Below are positions 1,721 to 38,263 of a stretch of DNA of 64,000 bases, piece by piece (within the stretch, counting starts at the first letter, position 1; each line of letters opens with the position of its first letter). The stretch is from the NCBI GenBank assembly GCA_947482115.1, contig CANKII010000001.1, positions 124,001 through 188,000 of the forward strand. Reading direction: 5' to 3'. The stretch is from Fibrobacterota bacterium. GTDB taxonomy: Bacteria; Fibrobacterota; Fibrobacteria; UBA11236. The notes beneath the pieces were generated by a model. It did no database searches and was not told where the DNA came from. It worked only from the letters and a program-made list of their open reading frames with translations. A program made the position numbers and the translations under genes.

Positions 1721-3577
1721 ATGAGCATGTTCGGTTTGCTGGCCAAGAAGCGATTTGCTCCCCTGTTCGGAGTCCAGTTTCTCGGGGCGTTGAACGACAA
1801 TCTGTTCAAAAACACCATGGTCATCATGATCGCCTTCAAAGCGGCTAATGAGGCCGAGTCGGGAATGTTGATCAATCTGGCGGCCGGGCTTTTTATCCTG
1901 CCCTTCTTCCTTTTCTCAACCGTGGCCGGGCAAATCTCGGACAAGTTCGAGAAGTCCCGGATCATGCGCATCATCAAGACTGCCGAAATCGGAATCATGG
2001 CCATTGGCGCGGTGGGTTTTTACACCGGACACAACGTATTGCTTTTCATAACGCTTTTTCTGATGGGCATCCACTCCGCATTTTTCGGTCCCGCCAAATA
2101 CAGCATCTTGCCCCAGCATCTCAAGGAAAGTGAATTGACCAACGGCAATGCCTTGGTGGAGATGGGTACCTTCCTCGCCATTCTCATCGGAACCTTGGCG
2201 GGCGGTTTGTTGGCTGGGAAACACAATGTTCATGCCATTTCAGCGGGGATACTCGGTGTGGCGATGGCCGGGTATCTGGCTTCGCGCTGGATTCCCATAG
2301 CTCCGGCCATGGCGCCGGATCTCAAGTTGCACTGGAATCCCTTCACGGAATCGCTGGCACTTACCCGCATCATTCGCAAGCAGCCCGCCGTATTCAATTC
2401 GATTCTGGGTATTTCCTGGTTCTGGTACTTCGGAGCGACTTTGCTGGCGCAACTGCCGAATTTCACCCGCCACATGTTGCTCGGGGACGAATCCGTCGTG
2501 ACATTATTGCTGGCCGTGTTTTCCATTTCCATCGGCATCGGTTCGGTGTTGTGCGCGAAGCTTTCGCATGATGAAATCGAACTCGGTCTGGTGCCGATCG
2601 GTGCATTGGGCATGACGGTGTTCACCGTCGATCTTTTCTTCATCCATTATCCCGCGGGCTCGGAACTTTTGGGCGCGAGCGCCATTCTTCACGGGGCGCG
2701 TTTCGCTCCCACCTTGCACGCCATCATCGATTTGGGAATGGTCGGAATCTTCAGCAGTCTTTTCATCGTGCCGCTTTACGCCCTGATTCAATCGCGTTCC
2801 AACGAGGATATGCGTTCCCGTGTCATTGCGGCTAACAATGTTTTTAACGCGGTGTTCATGGTCGGATCAGCATTGATTACCATGGCCCTGTTCAAGTTCG
2901 GTTTCAATACCATTCAAATTCTGCTCTTCACCGCCGTACTTAATCTTGCAGTCAGTGTTTACATCTGCCTGCTGATTCCGGAATTCCTGATGCGTTTTGT
3001 CATTTGGGTTTTGGCCAGTACCATTTACCGGATGCGTTACACCGGACGCGATCGAATCCCGCATCGTGGACCGGCCGTGATCGTCTGCAATCATGTCAGC
3101 TTCATCGACTGGTTTGTCATCACCGCCGGTTGCCGCCGCCCCGTATGCTTCATCATGGATCACAACATTTTCAAGAATCCGTTTCTGGGCTGGATTTTCA
3201 AATTATCCCGCGCCATTCCGATTGCGCCGGCCAGTGAAGATCCCGCTTTGCGTGACATCACCTTTGCCGCCATTTCGCGCGAACTCCGCGACGACAATCT
3301 GGTGTGCATTTTCCCGGAAGGGACGGTCACACGTGACGGCAACATGAACCGTTTCCGTCGTGGAGTGGAACTCATTCTCAAGAACGATCCGGTTCCCGTC
3401 ATTCCCATGGCGATTAACGGATTGTGGGGCAGCTTCTTCAGCCGCAAAAAAGGCAAGGCCATGTCCGGCATGCCCAAACCGTCACGTCGGGTGATTGGTT
3501 TGGCGATTGGAGAGCCCATGTCTGCGACTACATCCGCTGCGGATCTGGAAATCCAAGTGCGCGAGTTGCTCACATGA
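1721..3577 (+). CDS. MFS lysophospholipid transporter (LplT-like) fused to PlsC acyltransferase
   Basis: 618 residues. Residues 1 to about 430 form a major-facilitator transporter of the LplT type (FLGALNDNLFKN near the N-terminus, about 12 hydrophobic segments). Residues about 435-618 are a PlsC/LPLAT acyltransferase domain with the HX4D motif NHVSFID (His458) and the substrate motif FPEGTVTR. In E. coli, LplT imports lysophospholipids across the inner membrane and Aas re-acylates them; here transport and acyl transfer are on one chain, but the acyl-ACP synthetase (AMP-binding) domain of Aas is absent. The start has a clear ribosome-binding site (GGAGGA, spaced TTTC). The stop overlaps the start of the next gene (ATGA), which encodes an outer-membrane barrel, so a role in envelope lipid maintenance is likely. 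Confidence 0.88.
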   Translation: MSMFGLLAKKRFAPLFGVQFLGALNDNLFKNTMVIMIAFKAANEAESGMLINLAAGLFILPFFLFSTVAGQISDKFEKSRIMRIIKTAEIGIMAIGAVGFYTGHNVLLFITLFLMGIHSAFFGPAKYSILPQHLKESELTNGNALVEMGTFLAILIGTLAGGLLAGKHNVHAISAGILGVAMAGYLASRWIPIAPAMAPDLKLHWNPFTESLALTRIIRKQPAVFNSILGISWFWYFGATLLAQLPNFTRHMLLGDESVVTLLLAVFSISIGIGSVLCAKLSHDEIELGLVPIGALGMTVFTVDLFFIHYPAGSELLGASAILHGARFAPTLHAIIDLGMVGIFSSLFIVPLYALIQSRSNEDMRSRVIAANNVFNAVFMVGSALITMALFKFGFNTIQILLFTAVLNLAVSVYICLLIPEFLMRFVIWVLASTIYRMRYTGRDRIPHRGPAVIVCNHVSFIDWFVITAGCRRPVCFIMDHNIFKNPFLGWIFKLSRAIPIAPASEDPALRDITFAAISRELRDDNLVCIFPEGTVTRDGNMNRFRRGVELILKNDPVPVIPMAINGLWGSFFSRKKGKAMSGMPKPSRRVIGLAIGEPMSATTSAADLEIQVRELLT

Positions 3578-4704
3578 AACGGGGTTTGAAGGGAGTCCTC
3601 TTTGCAGGGGTGCTCATCTTGTGCTTTGGCAAACCCAGCCAAGCTGACAGCACGTCCGTCCAGGTATCCAAGCCCCAACATTGGGCCTTGGTGCCGATAT
3701 TGATTTCCAATGCGGAAACCGGTGTGCAACTGGGCGCGCTCGTAATGCGTTTCCTCAATCCGGAGGACACGCTCAACAAGCCTTCCACTATCGGTTTTGC
3801 GGCGCGGGTGTCCCAGAAGCTGCAGGTGGATGTGGATTTGTTTCCCGAATGGTATTTGCAAAACAACCGCTACCACATCACCGCCGATCTGGATTTCATC
3901 CGGTGGCCGGCTGATTTTTACGGACTCGGGAACGACACCAGCGACATCTCCAAGGAAAGCGCTGATCCGTATCTGGCGCAAGGGGTGAGCGGCAATCTGA
4001 CGGTGGAGCGGGAATGGTGGCCGAAGCTTTCCGCCGGACCCGAAGTGTTATTCAATTATGAAAAAATTGATCTGAAAAGTCGTCAATCCCTGTTTCCCGC
4101 CAACCTCCCGGGCAAACACGGTGGATTCACCAGCGGCCTCGGCGGTGTGATGACCTATGACCGGCGCGATGCCATTTACTGGGCGCGCAGCGGCTGCTTT
4201 TTACGGGGCAAAGCGGCTTGGTATCGAAGCCTGTGGGGGAGCGACTTCGACTATGACAGTTATTCGCTGGAAGTACGTCAATTCATTCCTGTCTTCGCCA
4301 CCGGCGCGCTCGGTTTTGCCGCCACTCTGGAACTTAAGGACGGAGATGTGCCGTTCCGCGATCTTTCCACACCCAATGGCGACAAGGCCATGCGCGGCAT
4401 GGTTCGGGGAAAATACCGCGACAGGGACATGCTCGTATTGCAAAGCGAATACAAAAGTTATTTGCCGGACTGGGGCTGGTTTCATTCCCGTCTGATTCGC
4501 AACCGGCTGGGATGGGCGGTGTTCGCCGAAGCTGGACAAGTGGCGCATACTACCCATGATTTTGCGTGGAGTGAATTCCGTCCGGCCTTCGGAGCGGGCT
4601 TGCGTTATGCCATGAATCCGTCCCAACGCATGAACATCCGCATCGACGTCGGGTATGTCGATCATTCCATTGCGCCCGCGATCAATATCAAAGAAGCTTT
4701 TTAA
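3574..4704 (+). CDS. BamA/surface-antigen-like outer-membrane beta-barrel protein
   Basis: 376 residues from ATG 3574, which overlaps the previous stop. A signal peptide (MKRGLKGVLFAGVLILC, cleavage near residue 24 after SQA) is followed by alternating aromatic beta-strands across the whole length, as in the Bac_surface_Ag barrel: GGVMTYDRRDAIYWARSG in the middle and FGAGLRYAMNP near the C-terminus. No POTRA domains are present, so this is a barrel-only member and not the essential BamA. Coupling with the LplT-PlsC fusion suggests a shared role in outer-membrane lipid or protein homeostasis (inference). The C-terminus ends in Phe, as is common for outer-membrane barrels. Confidence 0.8.
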   Translation: MKRGLKGVLFAGVLILCFGKPSQADSTSVQVSKPQHWALVPILISNAETGVQLGALVMRFLNPEDTLNKPSTIGFAARVSQKLQVDVDLFPEWYLQNNRYHITADLDFIRWPADFYGLGNDTSDISKESADPYLAQGVSGNLTVEREWWPKLSAGPEVLFNYEKIDLKSRQSLFPANLPGKHGGFTSGLGGVMTYDRRDAIYWARSGCFLRGKAAWYRSLWGSDFDYDSYSLEVRQFIPVFATGALGFAATLELKDGDVPFRDLSTPNGDKAMRGMVRGKYRDRDMLVLQSEYKSYLPDWGWFHSRLIRNRLGWAVFAEAGQVAHTTHDFAWSEFRPAFGAGLRYAMNPSQRMNIRIDVGYVDHSIAPAINIKEAF

Positions 4705-4799
4705 CTCGGAATATGACCTGTTATCGAAACGACGTTATCCAACGTTGTTAATACGTAATTGCATTGAGTTCCTTCCGGGTCTTTTTACCTTGGCCCTCC

Positions 4800-34146: not shown

Positions 34147-35271
34147 ATGAGGAAACAGCAAGCTTCACCCGGCCGAATTTGGCTGGAGATTCGCCTGGGG
34201 GCCATCCGCCGGAATTTTCTCCGCATCCAAAAGACAGTGAGCCCTGCCAGTGTGATGGCCGTGCTTAAGGCGGATGCTTATGGTTTGGGCGCGCTTCCGG
34301 TTGCGGAAGCCCTGGTAGAAGCAGGTGCAGCCCGTTTTGGGGTGGCAGGGCTTCGGGAAGCGATAACGCTTCGCCGCCGATTTTCTTTACCGATACAGAT
34401 TCTAAGTGGACTTCTTGAAAATGAAATACCGGAATGCGTAAAACGGAGGATTATCTGTCCCATTCCGGATTTACGAACGGCCCGACTTTTATCCAAAGAA
34501 GCTGTTCGGCAAAGGAAAAAAGTGACGGTGCATATCAAGGTGGACACGGGAATGGGCCGCCTTGGTATTCCTCATTTCGAAGCGCGCGAAACGATCGAAC
34601 GCATTCTCAAATTACCCGGGCTGGAATTCGAGGGCATCTTTTCGCATTTCGCCAATGCCAATCATCCCCAACATGCCAAGACAAGGGAACAAATCATCTT
34701 GTTCCAGAATCTGCTTCGCGATTTGGAAGCGAAAGGACATCATTTTCCCATTGTCCATCTCGCGAATTCCGACGGCATCAATAATTTTCCCGAGTCCTAT
34801 TTCAATATGGTGCGCACGGGCATCAATCTTTATGGTGTCTTTGACTTGTTGGGCTTTCGTGCTTATCAACTCTCTCCTTCGCTTAGCCTGAAAAGTGAAT
34901 TGATGGAGTGTCGTTTGTTGCCTGCAGGGTTCACCATTGGTTATGGAGGAACGCACACTCTTTTCCGCGACACGTGGGTGGGGACCATTCCTGCAGGCTA
35001 TGCAGACGGCGTGCCGCTGGCTGCGAGCAATTCCGGCAATGTGCTTATTCGCGGTCAAGCTTGTCCCATCATTGGACGCGTGTCTATGGACTATCTGACA
35101 GTGGATTTGACTGCTTGTCTGAAGGCGAAGGCGGGGGACGAGGTGGTGTTTGTGGGCCGTTCCGGTAAACAGGAAATCACGATTGAGGACTGGGCCCGCA
35201 TCAAACAGACTCATCCTTACGACATCATTTGCTCGCTGGGCCCGCGTGTGGATCGGATTTATTTGCCCTGA
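34147..35271 (+). CDS. alr: Alanine racemase
   Basis: 374 residues, standard length. Interconverts L- and D-alanine for peptidoglycan. PLP lysine is Lys41 in VLKADAYGLG; the second catalytic base is Tyr266 in IGYGGTHTLF. The RVSMDYLTVDLT block and the C-terminal GDEVVFVG region are standard. The first ten residues (MRKQQASPGR) are more basic than usual. Confidence 0.93.
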   Translation: MRKQQASPGRIWLEIRLGAIRRNFLRIQKTVSPASVMAVLKADAYGLGALPVAEALVEAGAARFGVAGLREAITLRRRFSLPIQILSGLLENEIPECVKRRIICPIPDLRTARLLSKEAVRQRKKVTVHIKVDTGMGRLGIPHFEARETIERILKLPGLEFEGIFSHFANANHPQHAKTREQIILFQNLLRDLEAKGHHFPIVHLANSDGINNFPESYFNMVRTGINLYGVFDLLGFRAYQLSPSLSLKSELMECRLLPAGFTIGYGGTHTLFRDTWVGTIPAGYADGVPLAASNSGNVLIRGQACPIIGRVSMDYLTVDLTACLKAKAGDEVVFVGRSGKQEITIEDWARIKQTHPYDIICSLGPRVDRIYLP

Positions 35272-35277
35272 TCCCGA

Positions 35278-35682
35278 TTAGGGGCGTTCGAGAAAAGCCT
35301 TGATTTGGGGGCCAAACTGGCGCAGCTCTTCGCGATGCGCGGTCGCCAGATTTTCAAGCACATCTTTTCCTTTTGAAGTGAGAATCACATACACTTCGCG
35401 ACGATCCTCAACTCCCACTTCCCGCTTCAACAAACCCTCAGTGACGGTTCGATTCACCAGACCTACTGCACTATGATGACGAATCTGTAATTGTTCGGCG
35501 AGTTCACCGATAGTGATTCTTTCGCGTCCGGGGAAACCCTGTACGGCCAACAGAGCCTGATATTGTTTGGGTTCAATGCCCAGACCTTCGGCAGCCTCTT
35601 CGCTAAAGCGAAAAAATTTGCGGAGAGCATATCGAAATTCGGCCAAAGCGACATAGTCTGTCTTTTTAATGCGCTTGCTCAT
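35278..35682 (-). CDS. MarR family transcriptional regulator
   Basis: 134 residues from ATG 35682. Winged-helix MarR domain: ITIGELAEQLQIRHHSAVGLVNRTVTEGLL is the recognition region, and DRREVYVILTSKGKDVLENL the wing and the following helix. MarR proteins are usually dimeric repressors that respond to small ligands. Just upstream of its start are two TGTAAC boxes 11 bp apart and a GCCAAATTGGC palindrome, either of which could be an operator. It converges on alr with 6 bp between stops. The Pycsar-like genes lie upstream on the same strand. Confidence 0.85.
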   Translation of the reverse strand: MSKRIKKTDYVALAEFRYALRKFFRFSEEAAEGLGIEPKQYQALLAVQGFPGRERITIGELAEQLQIRHHSAVGLVNRTVTEGLLKREVGVEDRREVYVILTSKGKDVLENLATAHREELRQFGPQIKAFLERP

Positions 35683-35732
35683 GAATGTCCCGTTGTAGCG
35701 ATGAAGCTTGAATTTCCGAACAATTCTCAGAT

Positions 35733-35749
35733 TGTAACAGAAATGTAAC
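35733..35749. promoter_or_regulatory. TGTAAC-N5-TGTAAC direct repeat upstream of marR
   Basis: Two TGTAAC boxes 11 bp apart (35733-35738 and 35744-35749), about one helical turn. Candidate operator for the MarR protein (inference). Confidence 0.35.
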
Positions 35750-35875
35750 GGGAAAGGCTGGCAATACCAAGTGGTTTTTAAGGCCAAATTGGCAAAAAAT
35801 GGCTTTTTTGGAAAAATCGCTCCAAAACGGGAACTTCAAACCCCGACTACTTGAGAAGATATGCCCGAATTGTGA

Positions 35876-36523
35876 CTAAGGGGAGAACAACAACAAAAGA
35901 ACGGTAGCAGACACTCCGATTGCTCCAGACCAAAGTCCGATTTTTAAAACAGCAAATTTTTCACGACAAATATCAGCGAGATCATGGACATGATTGAGTT
36001 TCGCTTCAATTAAATCTTGAACACAACATTGAAGGACATCGGTGGTATAGTCCTTTTTGGATTCAAATTCGGATATGGCACTGAAAAATAGTAGGCCACG
36101 TTTTGAGCCCCGCAATCTTGGAATTACAGCGTATAGGCATGCTAATGCAGATGCTGTCAGACCAATTGTGGCGGCAAAAGAAAGCATATTGGCGCACAAC
36201 CATTGTTTAGGAGAAATGAGCCAAATTTGAATAAGATGGGTTTTATACAGAAACGCGATTAGGGTAGTTGAACCTGCAAAGAAGAACGCTGCTTTCTGAT
36301 CGGCTTGTCTAATGTATTCGCGAATGTATTGGTGCGTTTCTTCAGCGAATTTCCACTGAAATTCTGTTGTCTTAGTAAGAGGTGCTTCAGCTTCCGACGA
36401 CCTGATGCTACTAGAACTAGGTTCTCCAGAACGTACTGATGATACAAGAGGGGCATTCTCGGCGCTTGGTGGAAGGGGCAATTCAGTCTGTAGATTTTGT
36501 CGGTGTTGAGTGGGGTTTGTCAT
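35876..36523 (-). CDS. Pycsar-type transmembrane effector (PycTM-like)
   Basis: 215 residues from ATG 36523; longer in-frame versions would overlap the cyclase. A Ser/Pro/Glu-rich disordered N-terminus (1-55) is followed by the pattern known for PycTM: IRQADQKAAFFFAGSTTLIA (71-90, first membrane segment), a second segment at about 112-135, PRLRGSKRGLLFFSAI, then a soluble helical part with KDYTTDVLQCC and KFAVLKIG, and a last membrane segment (about 194-213). In Pycsar, such effectors bind cyclic pyrimidine nucleotides made during phage infection and damage the membrane. It follows a class III cyclase gene by 8 bp on the same strand. Both are AT-richer than the neighbouring housekeeping genes. 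Confidence 0.75.
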   Translation of the reverse strand: MTNPTQHRQNLQTELPLPPSAENAPLVSSVRSGEPSSSSIRSSEAEAPLTKTTEFQWKFAEETHQYIREYIRQADQKAAFFFAGSTTLIAFLYKTHLIQIWLISPKQWLCANMLSFAATIGLTASALACLYAVIPRLRGSKRGLLFFSAISEFESKKDYTTDVLQCCVQDLIEAKLNHVHDLADICREKFAVLKIGLWSGAIGVSATVLLLLFSP

Positions 36524-36531
36524 TTTTTCAC

Positions 36532-37317
36532 CTATACCACACGGCTCCAACGCCCAAAATAACGATATAAAGAGTAGGGTTTGCCGTTTATCAGGTAAGT
36601 CCATCCAGTAATAATGGGCGTAAGTTCTGTCCAAGTTGTTTGCCAATCTTGGGGCAATTGTTTGTGAGCACTTTCTCCCATAACAATATCCCCGGCCTTT
36701 GCGTGCTTAAGCATTTTTGATGCAAAATTTGCAGTTGCACCAATCGCAGCGTTAGAATTGAAACGGCGTGGTGGACCCAGCCTGGCGATAGTCACAGAAC
36801 CATAATCAATTGATGTCCGAAATTCGATTTCTGTAGTGGGAGTATTGCGTAAGATTGGATTGATGAGATGTTTGTTAGCGGCTAGCATAGTCAAAGCACA
36901 AGCCACGGCTCGTTTAGTGCCTCGCTCTGGAGGATTCCCTTCACCATCATTGAAATAGATCAAAAGACCATCGCCAGTATTTTTCTCAACATTTCCACCA
37001 TATTCTTCTGCTATTCGAATCATTTCAGTAAAGAATAAATTCAATACACGAAGCGTAAGATCTTGCTCTTCTAAGGTTTCCATCGCACGATTCGAGAATC
37101 CACAGATATCGATAAACATGATGGCCATGGTAAGTCGTTTTCCGTCTCCAATTGAAAGAGATTCGTCGTCTGGAACCAAACGCCCTTCTCCTGATTTTGG
37201 TCTTGCACTAATTTTTTTTCGAAGATCTTCAATTCGCTCGGTTTGAGAGCGCCAGTAAGCAGCTGGAAGTCCGTCGTAATTCAAAAGCAACCGATTTCTT
37301 TCAGAGTATCTGCCCAT
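36532..37317 (-). CDS. Class III nucleotidyl cyclase of a Pycsar-like system (PycC-like)
   Basis: 261 residues. Residues about 60-215 are a class III cyclase homology domain: metal-binding Asp70 in IMFIDICGFS and Asp116 in NTGDGLLIYF, and Asn197 in IGATANFASK for the transition state. By comparison with adenylate cyclases, the base-specifying Asp position is Ala190, and the usual transition-state Arg is Lys201. This, and the PycTM-like gene 8 bp downstream, argue for a pyrimidine cyclase (cCMP or cUMP) and not a housekeeping adenylate cyclase. There is no clear Shine-Dalgarno in front of ATG 37317. A palindromic repeat lies 13 bp upstream. Confidence 0.78.
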   Translation of the reverse strand: MGRYSERNRLLLNYDGLPAAYWRSQTERIEDLRKKISARPKSGEGRLVPDDESLSIGDGKRLTMAIMFIDICGFSNRAMETLEEQDLTLRVLNLFFTEMIRIAEEYGGNVEKNTGDGLLIYFNDGEGNPPERGTKRAVACALTMLAANKHLINPILRNTPTTEIEFRTSIDYGSVTIARLGPPRRFNSNAAIGATANFASKMLKHAKAGDIVMGESAHKQLPQDWQTTWTELTPIITGWTYLINGKPYSLYRYFGRWSRVV

Positions 37318-37329
37318 TAAAAATTGAAA

Positions 37330-37357
37330 TGTTGGAGCGAGTTGCCCCGCCCCAACA
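37330..37357. repeat. TGTTGG...CCGCCCCAACA palindromic repeat
   Basis: TGTTGGAGCGAGTT pairs with GCCCCGCCCCAACA with two mismatches. It is related to the repeat inside the penicillin-acylase gene (275-328) and lies at the upstream edge of the cyclase gene. Confidence 0.6.
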
Positions 37358-37364
37358 AATTAAG

Positions 37365-37388
37365 ACGGCCTATTTTTTATTAGGCCGT
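37365..37388 (-). terminator. Hairpin overlapping stop of the 45-residue gene
   Basis: ACGGCCTA (37365-37372) and TAGGCCGT (37381-37388) are perfect 8-bp arms around an A/T loop. The stop codon is inside the stem. No T-run follows on the minus strand. Confidence 0.45.
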
Positions 37389-37507
37389 TGTGTCAGAGCA
37401 CTCGCAGCTGCGGATTTCGCCGCTGAAGATGAGCGCGGGTCGCGAAGCACTTTGGATGCGGCAGTAGCTGCTTTAGCCGAAGTGACTTCATTGTTCCCCT
37501 TTCTCAT
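37370..37507 (-). CDS. 45-residue basic, Ala/Ser/Lys-rich protein
   Basis: The start ATG 37507 follows an optimal GGAAAGGAGGTAAAT ribosome-binding site; a longer reading upstream has no such signal. The sequence runs MRKGNNEVTSAKAATAASK, then VLRDPRSSSAAKSAAASAL and a QRPNKK tail. Similar short proteins (SKVLRDxxSSxAAKSxAxSALSQ form) are frequent in bacteria and have no known function. It is likely cytoplasmic and helical. It lies directly upstream of the Pycsar-like genes on the same strand. Its leader contains the hairpin CAGATGA-GCACA-TCATCTG (37522-37540) just ahead of the ribosome-binding site. Confidence 0.7.
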   Translation of the reverse strand: MRKGNNEVTSAKAATAASKVLRDPRSSSAAKSAAASALTQRPNKK

Positions 37508-37539
37508 ATTTACCTCCTTTCCAGATGATGTGCTCATCT

Positions 37540-37675
37540 GTGTACTTACCGGAGGTCTCGAAAACTCACTATGTTCATGTTCCCAATACGAACCTGAGAT
37601 CGATTCCGGCAAACCGGATGAGAGGCTTAGACAAAAGGCACTGGTAGACACCAATGCCTTTTTTTTTGTTTTTGG
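37540..37675 (+). ncRNA. Possible structured RNA ending in an intrinsic terminator
   Basis: On the plus strand this stretch has nested pairing GGTCTC/GAGATC and GTTC/GAAC, a CCGG-CAAA-CCGG hairpin, and a strong terminator at 37633-37672. The nearest plus-strand gene upstream is alr, more than 2 kb away, so the terminator has no obvious mRNA to end. An RNA antisense to the leader of the 45-residue gene would explain it. It could also be that only the terminator matters, used by the minus-strand EVE gene. Confidence 0.3.
37633..37672. terminator. Intrinsic terminator AAAAGGCA-TGGT/ACCA-TGCCTTTTTTTTT
   Basis: AAAGGCA pairs with TGCCTTT, then one mismatch, then TGGT with ACCA around an AGAC loop; nine T follow on the plus strand and TTTTG on the minus strand. 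It can act strongly on plus-strand transcripts and weakly on the EVE gene's transcript. Confidence 0.75.
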
Positions 37676-37795
37676 CCTAATCAAGATCTAAGTACTAATA
37701 GCTTCCGGGACGAAAAGCTAATTTTACCCGTGTTTAAAATTCACATAAGTAGTTGATTTCAATCGAGATAAATTAGCAGAAGCTCCAATAGCTTT

Positions 37796-38263
37796 TTATT
37801 TCTTCTTCGCCATCCATTTCACAATGATCTGGTATTCCTTCGCAGTCACAGGTTGAACTGAGAGACGGGAACCTTTGCGTAGAACCACCATGGATTCTAA
37901 CCCGGGAATCGTCCGCATTTCTTCCATCGACAAAAGATTGGGGAAGGTCTTGACGAATTTCACATTCACCGCACGCCAGCGATTGCCGAGTTTTTCAGCT
38001 TTCGGATCGAAATAATGGGATTCGGGATCCATAGCCGTGGGATCGGGAAACGGTTCGGAAACGACTTCAGCCAAACCCGCAATGCCCGCAGGAGTAACGC
38101 TGCTGTGATGAAACAATACGGCATCTCCCGGGCGCATGGCTTGCAGATTATTCCGCGCCTGATAATTGCGGACTCCGGTCCATGGCTCGGTCTGTTTGGG
38201 CCTTGTTCTCAAATGCTCAATGCCGAATTCATCGGGTTCACTTTTCATCAGCCAATATTTCAT
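37796..38263 (-). CDS. EVE domain protein
   Basis: 155 residues from ATG 38263 behind AAGGGGG. A stand-alone EVE domain: YWLMKSEPDEFGIEHL, TEPWTGVRNYQARNNLQAM, GDAVLFHHSS and IAGLAEVVSEPFPDP are family signatures. EVE is a PUA-like fold that binds modified bases in DNA or RNA; stand-alone forms are widespread and their role unclear, while fused forms occur in restriction systems. It sits between the Pycsar-like island and mnmG, divergent from mnmG. Confidence 0.9.
   Translation of the reverse strand: MKYWLMKSEPDEFGIEHLRTRPKQTEPWTGVRNYQARNNLQAMRPGDAVLFHHSSVTPAGIAGLAEVVSEPFPDPTAMDPESHYFDPKAEKLGNRWRAVNVKFVKTFPNLLSMEEMRTIPGLESMVVLRKGSRLSVQPVTAKEYQIIVKWMAKKK

Follow-up and report, generated by a model that had tools for sequence, protein, structure and literature searches.

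A probable Pycsar cyclase-effector pair in a variable interval of a Fibrobacterota genome

The locus and its surroundings

The window analysed here is the whole of a 64,000-nucleotide stretch of a Fibrobacterota contig (CANKII010000001.1). On its minus strand lie two adjacent genes: pycC (36532..37317), which encodes a class III nucleotide cyclase of 261 codons counted from its ATG, and, downstream of it, pycTM (35876..36523), which encodes a membrane effector of 215 codons, likewise counted from ATG. The initial annotation had described a two-gene cyclase/effector block with 8 bp between the genes, richer in AT than its neighbours and placed between marR and an EVE gene, and each part of this description is borne out. 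Both minus-strand frames are open, and the gap between them is 8 bp, identical to the gap in the closest relative of the pair. The GC content of the two genes is 43.1%, compared with 52.0% for the window, which ranks the pair in the bottom 4 of 626 overlapping segments of matched size; GC3 is 0.35 in the pair and 0.47-0.57 in the neighbouring genes. The flanks consist of an alanine racemase gene and marR on one side and the EVE gene and mnmG on the other, and the identities of the MarR and EVE neighbours are backed by Pfam matches. The start of pycC may differ from the annotated one. The cyclases of its relatives begin at MNYDGL, and the codon of the window that aligns with this start is a TTG at 37284, which may be the true start rather than the annotated ATG at 37317.

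Upstream of pycC, at a distance of 52 bp and on the same strand, there is a small Ala/Ser-rich open reading frame of 45 codons (MRKGNNEVTSAKAATAASKVLRDPRSSSAAKSAAASALTQRPNKK, 37370..37507), preceded by a strong Shine-Dalgarno sequence (AAAGGAGGTAAAT-ATG), of which the initial annotation made no mention. Its GC content is 52%, unlike that of the pair, and its product matches no family. Six further genomes of the phylum encode homologues, one of them 84% identical, and these are found near defence-like genes, such as an AAA ATPase gene at three loci. Between the small frame and pycC the minus strand carries two GC-rich inverted repeats, one at 37388-37365 and the other, after which comes a T-rich tract, at 37357-37330; these were called by a consensus scan only, which returned 7 terminator-like sites in the region as against 3.2 expected. 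The repeats are a possible terminator or attenuator, and the small frame itself a possible leader or third gene. As a fixed third component of a Pycsar system it is unsupported, being absent from the loci of the relatives.

The interval between the racemase and EVE genes varies among related genomes. In one congener the racemase gene (alr) converges with the EVE gene and their ends overlap, with nothing between them, and in two others a desaturase gene and an epimerase gene lie between them; in the window, marR, pycTM, pycC and the small frame fill exactly this interval. That is, the same site (35271-37796 in the window) is found empty, occupied by desaturase and epimerase, or occupied by marR and the Pycsar genes. 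Since the pair is absent from relatives (an effector homologue was not found in any of 60 related genomes), is rich in AT, and corresponds to an empty site in a congener, its sequence and context indicate that it is horizontally acquired. When the effector was queried against plasmids and phages, no match was obtained.

Across the phylum, 12 of 168 genomes encode a PycTM-like protein, in some cases adjoining cyclases of other lineages. Two genomes of the same class (G046, locus L020; G142, locus L018) contain Pycsar loci that differ from the present one: one of these loci combines PycTM with two cyclases, one of them clade-D-like, and the other combines PycTM with a single cyclase. Pycsar has therefore reached this group more than once.

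The effector and its pairing with the cyclase

The second gene had been assigned to PycTM from its membrane layout and motif order, with a profile comparison suggested as the check. This comparison agrees with the assignment: the protein matches Pfam PF18967, 'Pycsar effector protein', with 41.1 bits (curated cut-off 27.2), and it matches the PADLOC PycTM model at 2.3e-24. The three motifs that had been named, IRQADQKAAFFFAGS, PRLRGSKRGLLFF and KFAVLKIG, are all found in the protein. When 14 related effectors are compared, Tyr70, Asp75, Lys77, Pro135 and Lys189 are invariant, and the last four of these residues fall inside or beside the motifs. An AlphaFold2 model (pLDDT 78.8) consists of a disordered N-terminus (residues ~1-46) followed by long helices at 48-94, 110-133 and 168-213. 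Membrane spans are placed near residues 80-95, 112-134 and 195-213, of which the latter two are the most clearly hydrophobic; the segment 80-95 lies below the hydrophobicity threshold, and the model suggests that it spans the membrane nonetheless. A fold search of the PDB with the effector gave no significant match, as expected, because a sequence search of the PDB found no PycTM structure either.

A search of the genome contigs with the cyclase sequence alone recovered no relatives. With a two-sequence alignment as the query, consisting of the cyclase and its homologue from Haloterrigena, relatives were recovered at 11 genomic loci and at 7 loci on viral contigs. The five closest cyclases are 80, 71, 70, 62 and 55% identical to ours and belong to Gallionellaceae, Kiritimatiellae, Burkholderiaceae, Gammaproteobacteria and Acidobacteria. 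In each of them a PycTM homologue lies immediately downstream of the cyclase, at an intergenic distance of about -4 to +9 bp, and the four downstream partners that were tested against Pfam all score above the cut-off. PycTM also neighbours the remoter cyclases of Chloroflexota, haloarchaea and viral contigs, with the order reversed, PycTM first, in the Chloroflexota relative and in two viral contigs. The partner of the Haloterrigena cyclase carries the annotation 'Pycsar system effector family protein'. As far as sequence can settle the matter, it is this conserved pairing with PycTM that decisively identifies the cyclase.

The PADLOC score of the cyclase, by comparison, proves little. The PADLOC PycC models do match it, with a best score of 74 bits on PDLC02367, the clade B model, but ordinary multidomain membrane cyclases from the phylum reach 60-89 bits with it as well, and so we dropped the score as proof of PycC. 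Indeed, PDLC02367 is matched in 142 of the 168 genomes of the phylum, mostly by ordinary multidomain cyclases, so that a PycC call would mostly be a false positive unless an effector gene lies next to it.

Active site, base pocket and phylogeny of the cyclase

The cyclase contains Pfam PF00211 (36.7 bits, cut-off 21.9), and its AlphaFold2 model (pLDDT 82.4, pTM 0.83) has the class III cyclase fold. A fold search confirms this fold without telling PycC apart from ordinary cyclases; the adenylate/guanylate cyclases 2w01, 3r5g and 1wc1 rank above the PycC structures. Four active-site residues had been singled out beforehand, Asp70 and Asp116 as metal ligands and Ala190 and Lys201 as signs of a pyrimidine cyclase, and all four are located exactly at those positions. 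Both metal ligands are invariant throughout the lineage of the cyclase.

The two remaining residues differ in what they can tell us. Aligning 80 cyclase domains, 51 Pycsar-type and 29 ordinary, shows that the site of the transition-state Arg holds Lys (47) or His (4) in every Pycsar-type domain and Arg in every ordinary one. Lys201 occupies this position in our cyclase, as does Lys in the crystal sequences of PaPycC, BcPycC, AnPycC and EaPycC (6yii, 7r65, 8jsz, 8jsf), and it is thus a good clue to a pyrimidine cyclase. Ala190 had been offered as a second clue, at the position of the Asp that specifies adenine, but it is a weak one: 25 of the 29 ordinary cyclases also lack Asp there and have Thr, which rules out Ala190 as proof of a pyrimidine product.

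The base pocket consists, by position, of Phe68, Lys112, Thr114, Gly117 and Leu119, together with Ala190. Lys112 corresponds to the adenine-contacting Lys of adenylate cyclases. It is common to 28 of the 29 ordinary cyclases and invariant in the lineage of the cyclase, and it is absent from this position in all 4 verified PycC references. The published pockets are Tyr50/Asp94/Arg97 for UTP in BcPycC, Phe60/Lys104/Phe109 for UTP in AnPycC and Phe100/Arg142/Gln144 for CTP in EaPycC (PMC11224242), and the residues Phe68/Lys112/Thr114/Gly117/Leu119 equal none of these sets. Every characterised PycC produces cCMP or cUMP (PMC11224242). A cyclic pyrimidine product is accordingly what family membership, and not the base pocket, would predict.

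Clades were defined from PMC11224242 together with the best-matching PADLOC model of each crystallised PycC; the scores of these proteins on PDLC02366 (clade A), 02367 (B), 02369 (D) and 02370 (E) range from 210 to 292 bits. Three groups are well supported in a tree of 75 domains that omits the clade A protein PaPycC because of its long branch: ordinary cyclases (100/99), the clade E reference with its relatives (100/100), and clade D (100/98). The cyclase belongs to a lineage of 18 members (support 100/98), marked by the motif EKNTGDG, that holds no reference of clade A, B, D or E; PaPycC falls outside it in a quick tree. Its hosts are Pseudomonadota, Kiritimatiellota, Acidobacteriota, a Fibrobacterota-type host, Chloroflexota and haloarchaea, with further members on viral contigs. 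One outcome that would have counted against a Pycsar reading was a position among ordinary adenylate cyclases. The ordinary clade excludes the cyclase, though the AU test keeps a direct union possible: uniting the lineage with ordinary cyclases gives p 0.36, with clade E 0.44 and with clade B 0.15, and none of the three is rejected. A grouping with clade B or clade E is thus neither shown nor rejected by this test. Because the deep order of the lineages is not settled by it, the tree carries less weight for the Pycsar identity of the cyclase than do the effector, the conserved pairing and the Lys marker.

The two tandem cyclase domains typical of clade A are not found, as the protein of 261 aa has a single domain. 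On PDLC02368, a model assigned to clade C by elimination, the cyclase scores 23 bits, a low value that would argue against membership of clade C if this assignment is right. It resembles the clade B protein BcPycC (7r65, cUMP) in its size, its single domain, its adjacent effector and its Lys for Arg, but Phe68, Thr114 and Gly117 replace Tyr50, Asp94 and Arg97, and it scores 74 bits on the model that gives BcPycC 256. With the clade D protein AnPycC (8jsz, cUMP) it shares a PycTM partner and the Phe at position 68 (Phe60 in AnPycC); Lys104 and Phe109 are replaced by Thr114 and Leu119, the C-terminal region has no Cys and none of the zinc-finger Cys/His, and the score on the clade D model is 29 bits. 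Clade E, represented by EaPycC (8jsf, cCMP) and also including the E. coli PycC, likewise has a single class III domain adjoining PycTM, a Phe before the first metal Asp, a Lys for the transition-state Arg, and a basic residue four positions before the second Asp (Lys112 here, Arg142 in EaPycC). Unlike EaPycC, however, our protein is shorter, has Thr114 in place of Gln144, and scores 49 bits with the PADLOC model on which the EaPycC fragment reaches 210. It lies outside the clade E branch, and a sister relation to that clade is compatible with the AU test.

Two further comparisons bracket the cyclase. A plasmid locus of Haloterrigena salifodinae (NZ_CP069189.1) has the same arrangement of a cyclase followed by an annotated Pycsar effector, and its cyclase belongs to the same lineage and carries EKNTGDG; the identity is 27%, the two genes there overlap by 4 bp, and a second cyclase lies divergently upstream. 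The ordinary cyclases CyaB (3r5g), CyaC (1wc0) and Cya2 (2w01) share the fold and the pair of metal Asp residues, and CyaB and CyaC also have a Lys four positions before the second Asp. All three differ from our cyclase in keeping the transition-state Arg, in being domains of larger proteins, and in not being known as partners of PycTM.

It is possible, although we hold this tentatively and at somewhat less than even confidence, that the 18 members form a PycC lineage outside clades A-E, whose Phe-Lys-Thr pocket, unlike the known UTP and CTP pockets, might go with a cyclic mononucleotide other than those expected or choose a pyrimidine in a new way.

Interpretation and alternatives

The pair is probably a horizontally acquired Pycsar operon acting against phages by abortive infection, with cUMP or cCMP as the most likely product of the cyclase. 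The initial annotation had read the locus as a Pycsar-like anti-phage pair, and the PycTM match, the conserved pairing, Lys201 and the position in the tree all support it in this. The architecture is ordinary for Pycsar, a type of system already known. By analogy with AnPycC/AnPycTM (PMC11224242), a pair that guards E. coli against phage T2 and is toxic on overexpression, phage infection would activate PycC, which would then cyclise UTP or CTP, these being the most likely of the nucleoside triphosphates. The resulting 3',5'-cyclic mononucleotide would bind the neighbouring PycTM, and PycTM would impair the inner membrane, so that the infected cell would stop growing before the phage progeny are mature. 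The phage trigger, the pyrimidine product and the damage to the membrane are all expected on this analogy. Phages counter Pycsar with the nuclease Apyc1 (PMC9117128).

A locus with the layout and purpose of Pycsar might nevertheless use a purine messenger, with cAMP or cGMP made in bulk on infection and sensed by PycTM. We consider this unlikely. The invariant Lys112, shared with ordinary cyclases and not with the verified PycC references, speaks for it, as does the AU test, which permits the lineage to stand directly beside ordinary cyclases; yet the characterised PycC proteins make pyrimidine products without exception, the Asp/Thr partner of adenine is Ala here, and the Arg of all ordinary cyclases is Lys. 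Moreover, the genome encodes two other class III cyclases of the ordinary type, with which a purine signal would cross-talk. It is far less probable still, and in our view can almost be set aside, that an ordinary adenylate cyclase of housekeeping signalling has come by chance to lie next to an unrelated small membrane protein. The class III fold, the metal ligands and the best fold matches, which are to ordinary cyclases, would suit such a reading, but the effector is PycTM by a curated profile, its adjacency to the cyclase is kept across several bacterial phyla and haloarchaea, the pair is absent from relatives, and Lys201 is present.

Two other possibilities concern the state and the extent of the operon. 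That the copy is decayed or silent seems to us very improbable: the species is represented by one genome, which leaves room for the suggestion, but both frames are intact and the catalytic and lineage-invariant residues are all kept. The locus might also be a three-gene unit, in which the protein of 45 aa, or its leader, controls pycC as a sensor, an inhibitor or an attenuator; this would add to the Pycsar reading and does not exclude it. The strand, strong Shine-Dalgarno sequence and proximity of the small frame are in its favour, together with the defence-like genes that adjoin its homologues in the phylum. The small frame is, however, not found upstream of pycC in any relative examined, possible terminator repeats intervene, and its GC content differs from that of the pair, so that we regard such a unit as doubtful.

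Taken as a Pycsar system, the locus adds a well-supported pair for a further host group. It also exposes a lineage of cyclases whose scores on the current PycC models are no higher than those of ordinary cyclases, and annotation from profiles alone therefore cannot tell the two apart. The change from Arg to Lys provides a testable sequence marker of Pycsar cyclases, and the residue sets published for UTP and CTP do not allow the product of the base pocket to be predicted.

In many of the relatives pycC is accompanied by a second cyclase-like gene (L044, L045, L046 at 2964-4004, L047, L048; L034 at 3363-4709; L031, L039 and L040). In viral contigs this gene encodes a cyclase-like type of 310-380 aa without a matching model, in Kiritimatiellae a clade-E-like protein of 448 aa, and in haloarchaea a divergent cyclase. 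Two cyclases together with one PycTM may thus be a recurrent arrangement.
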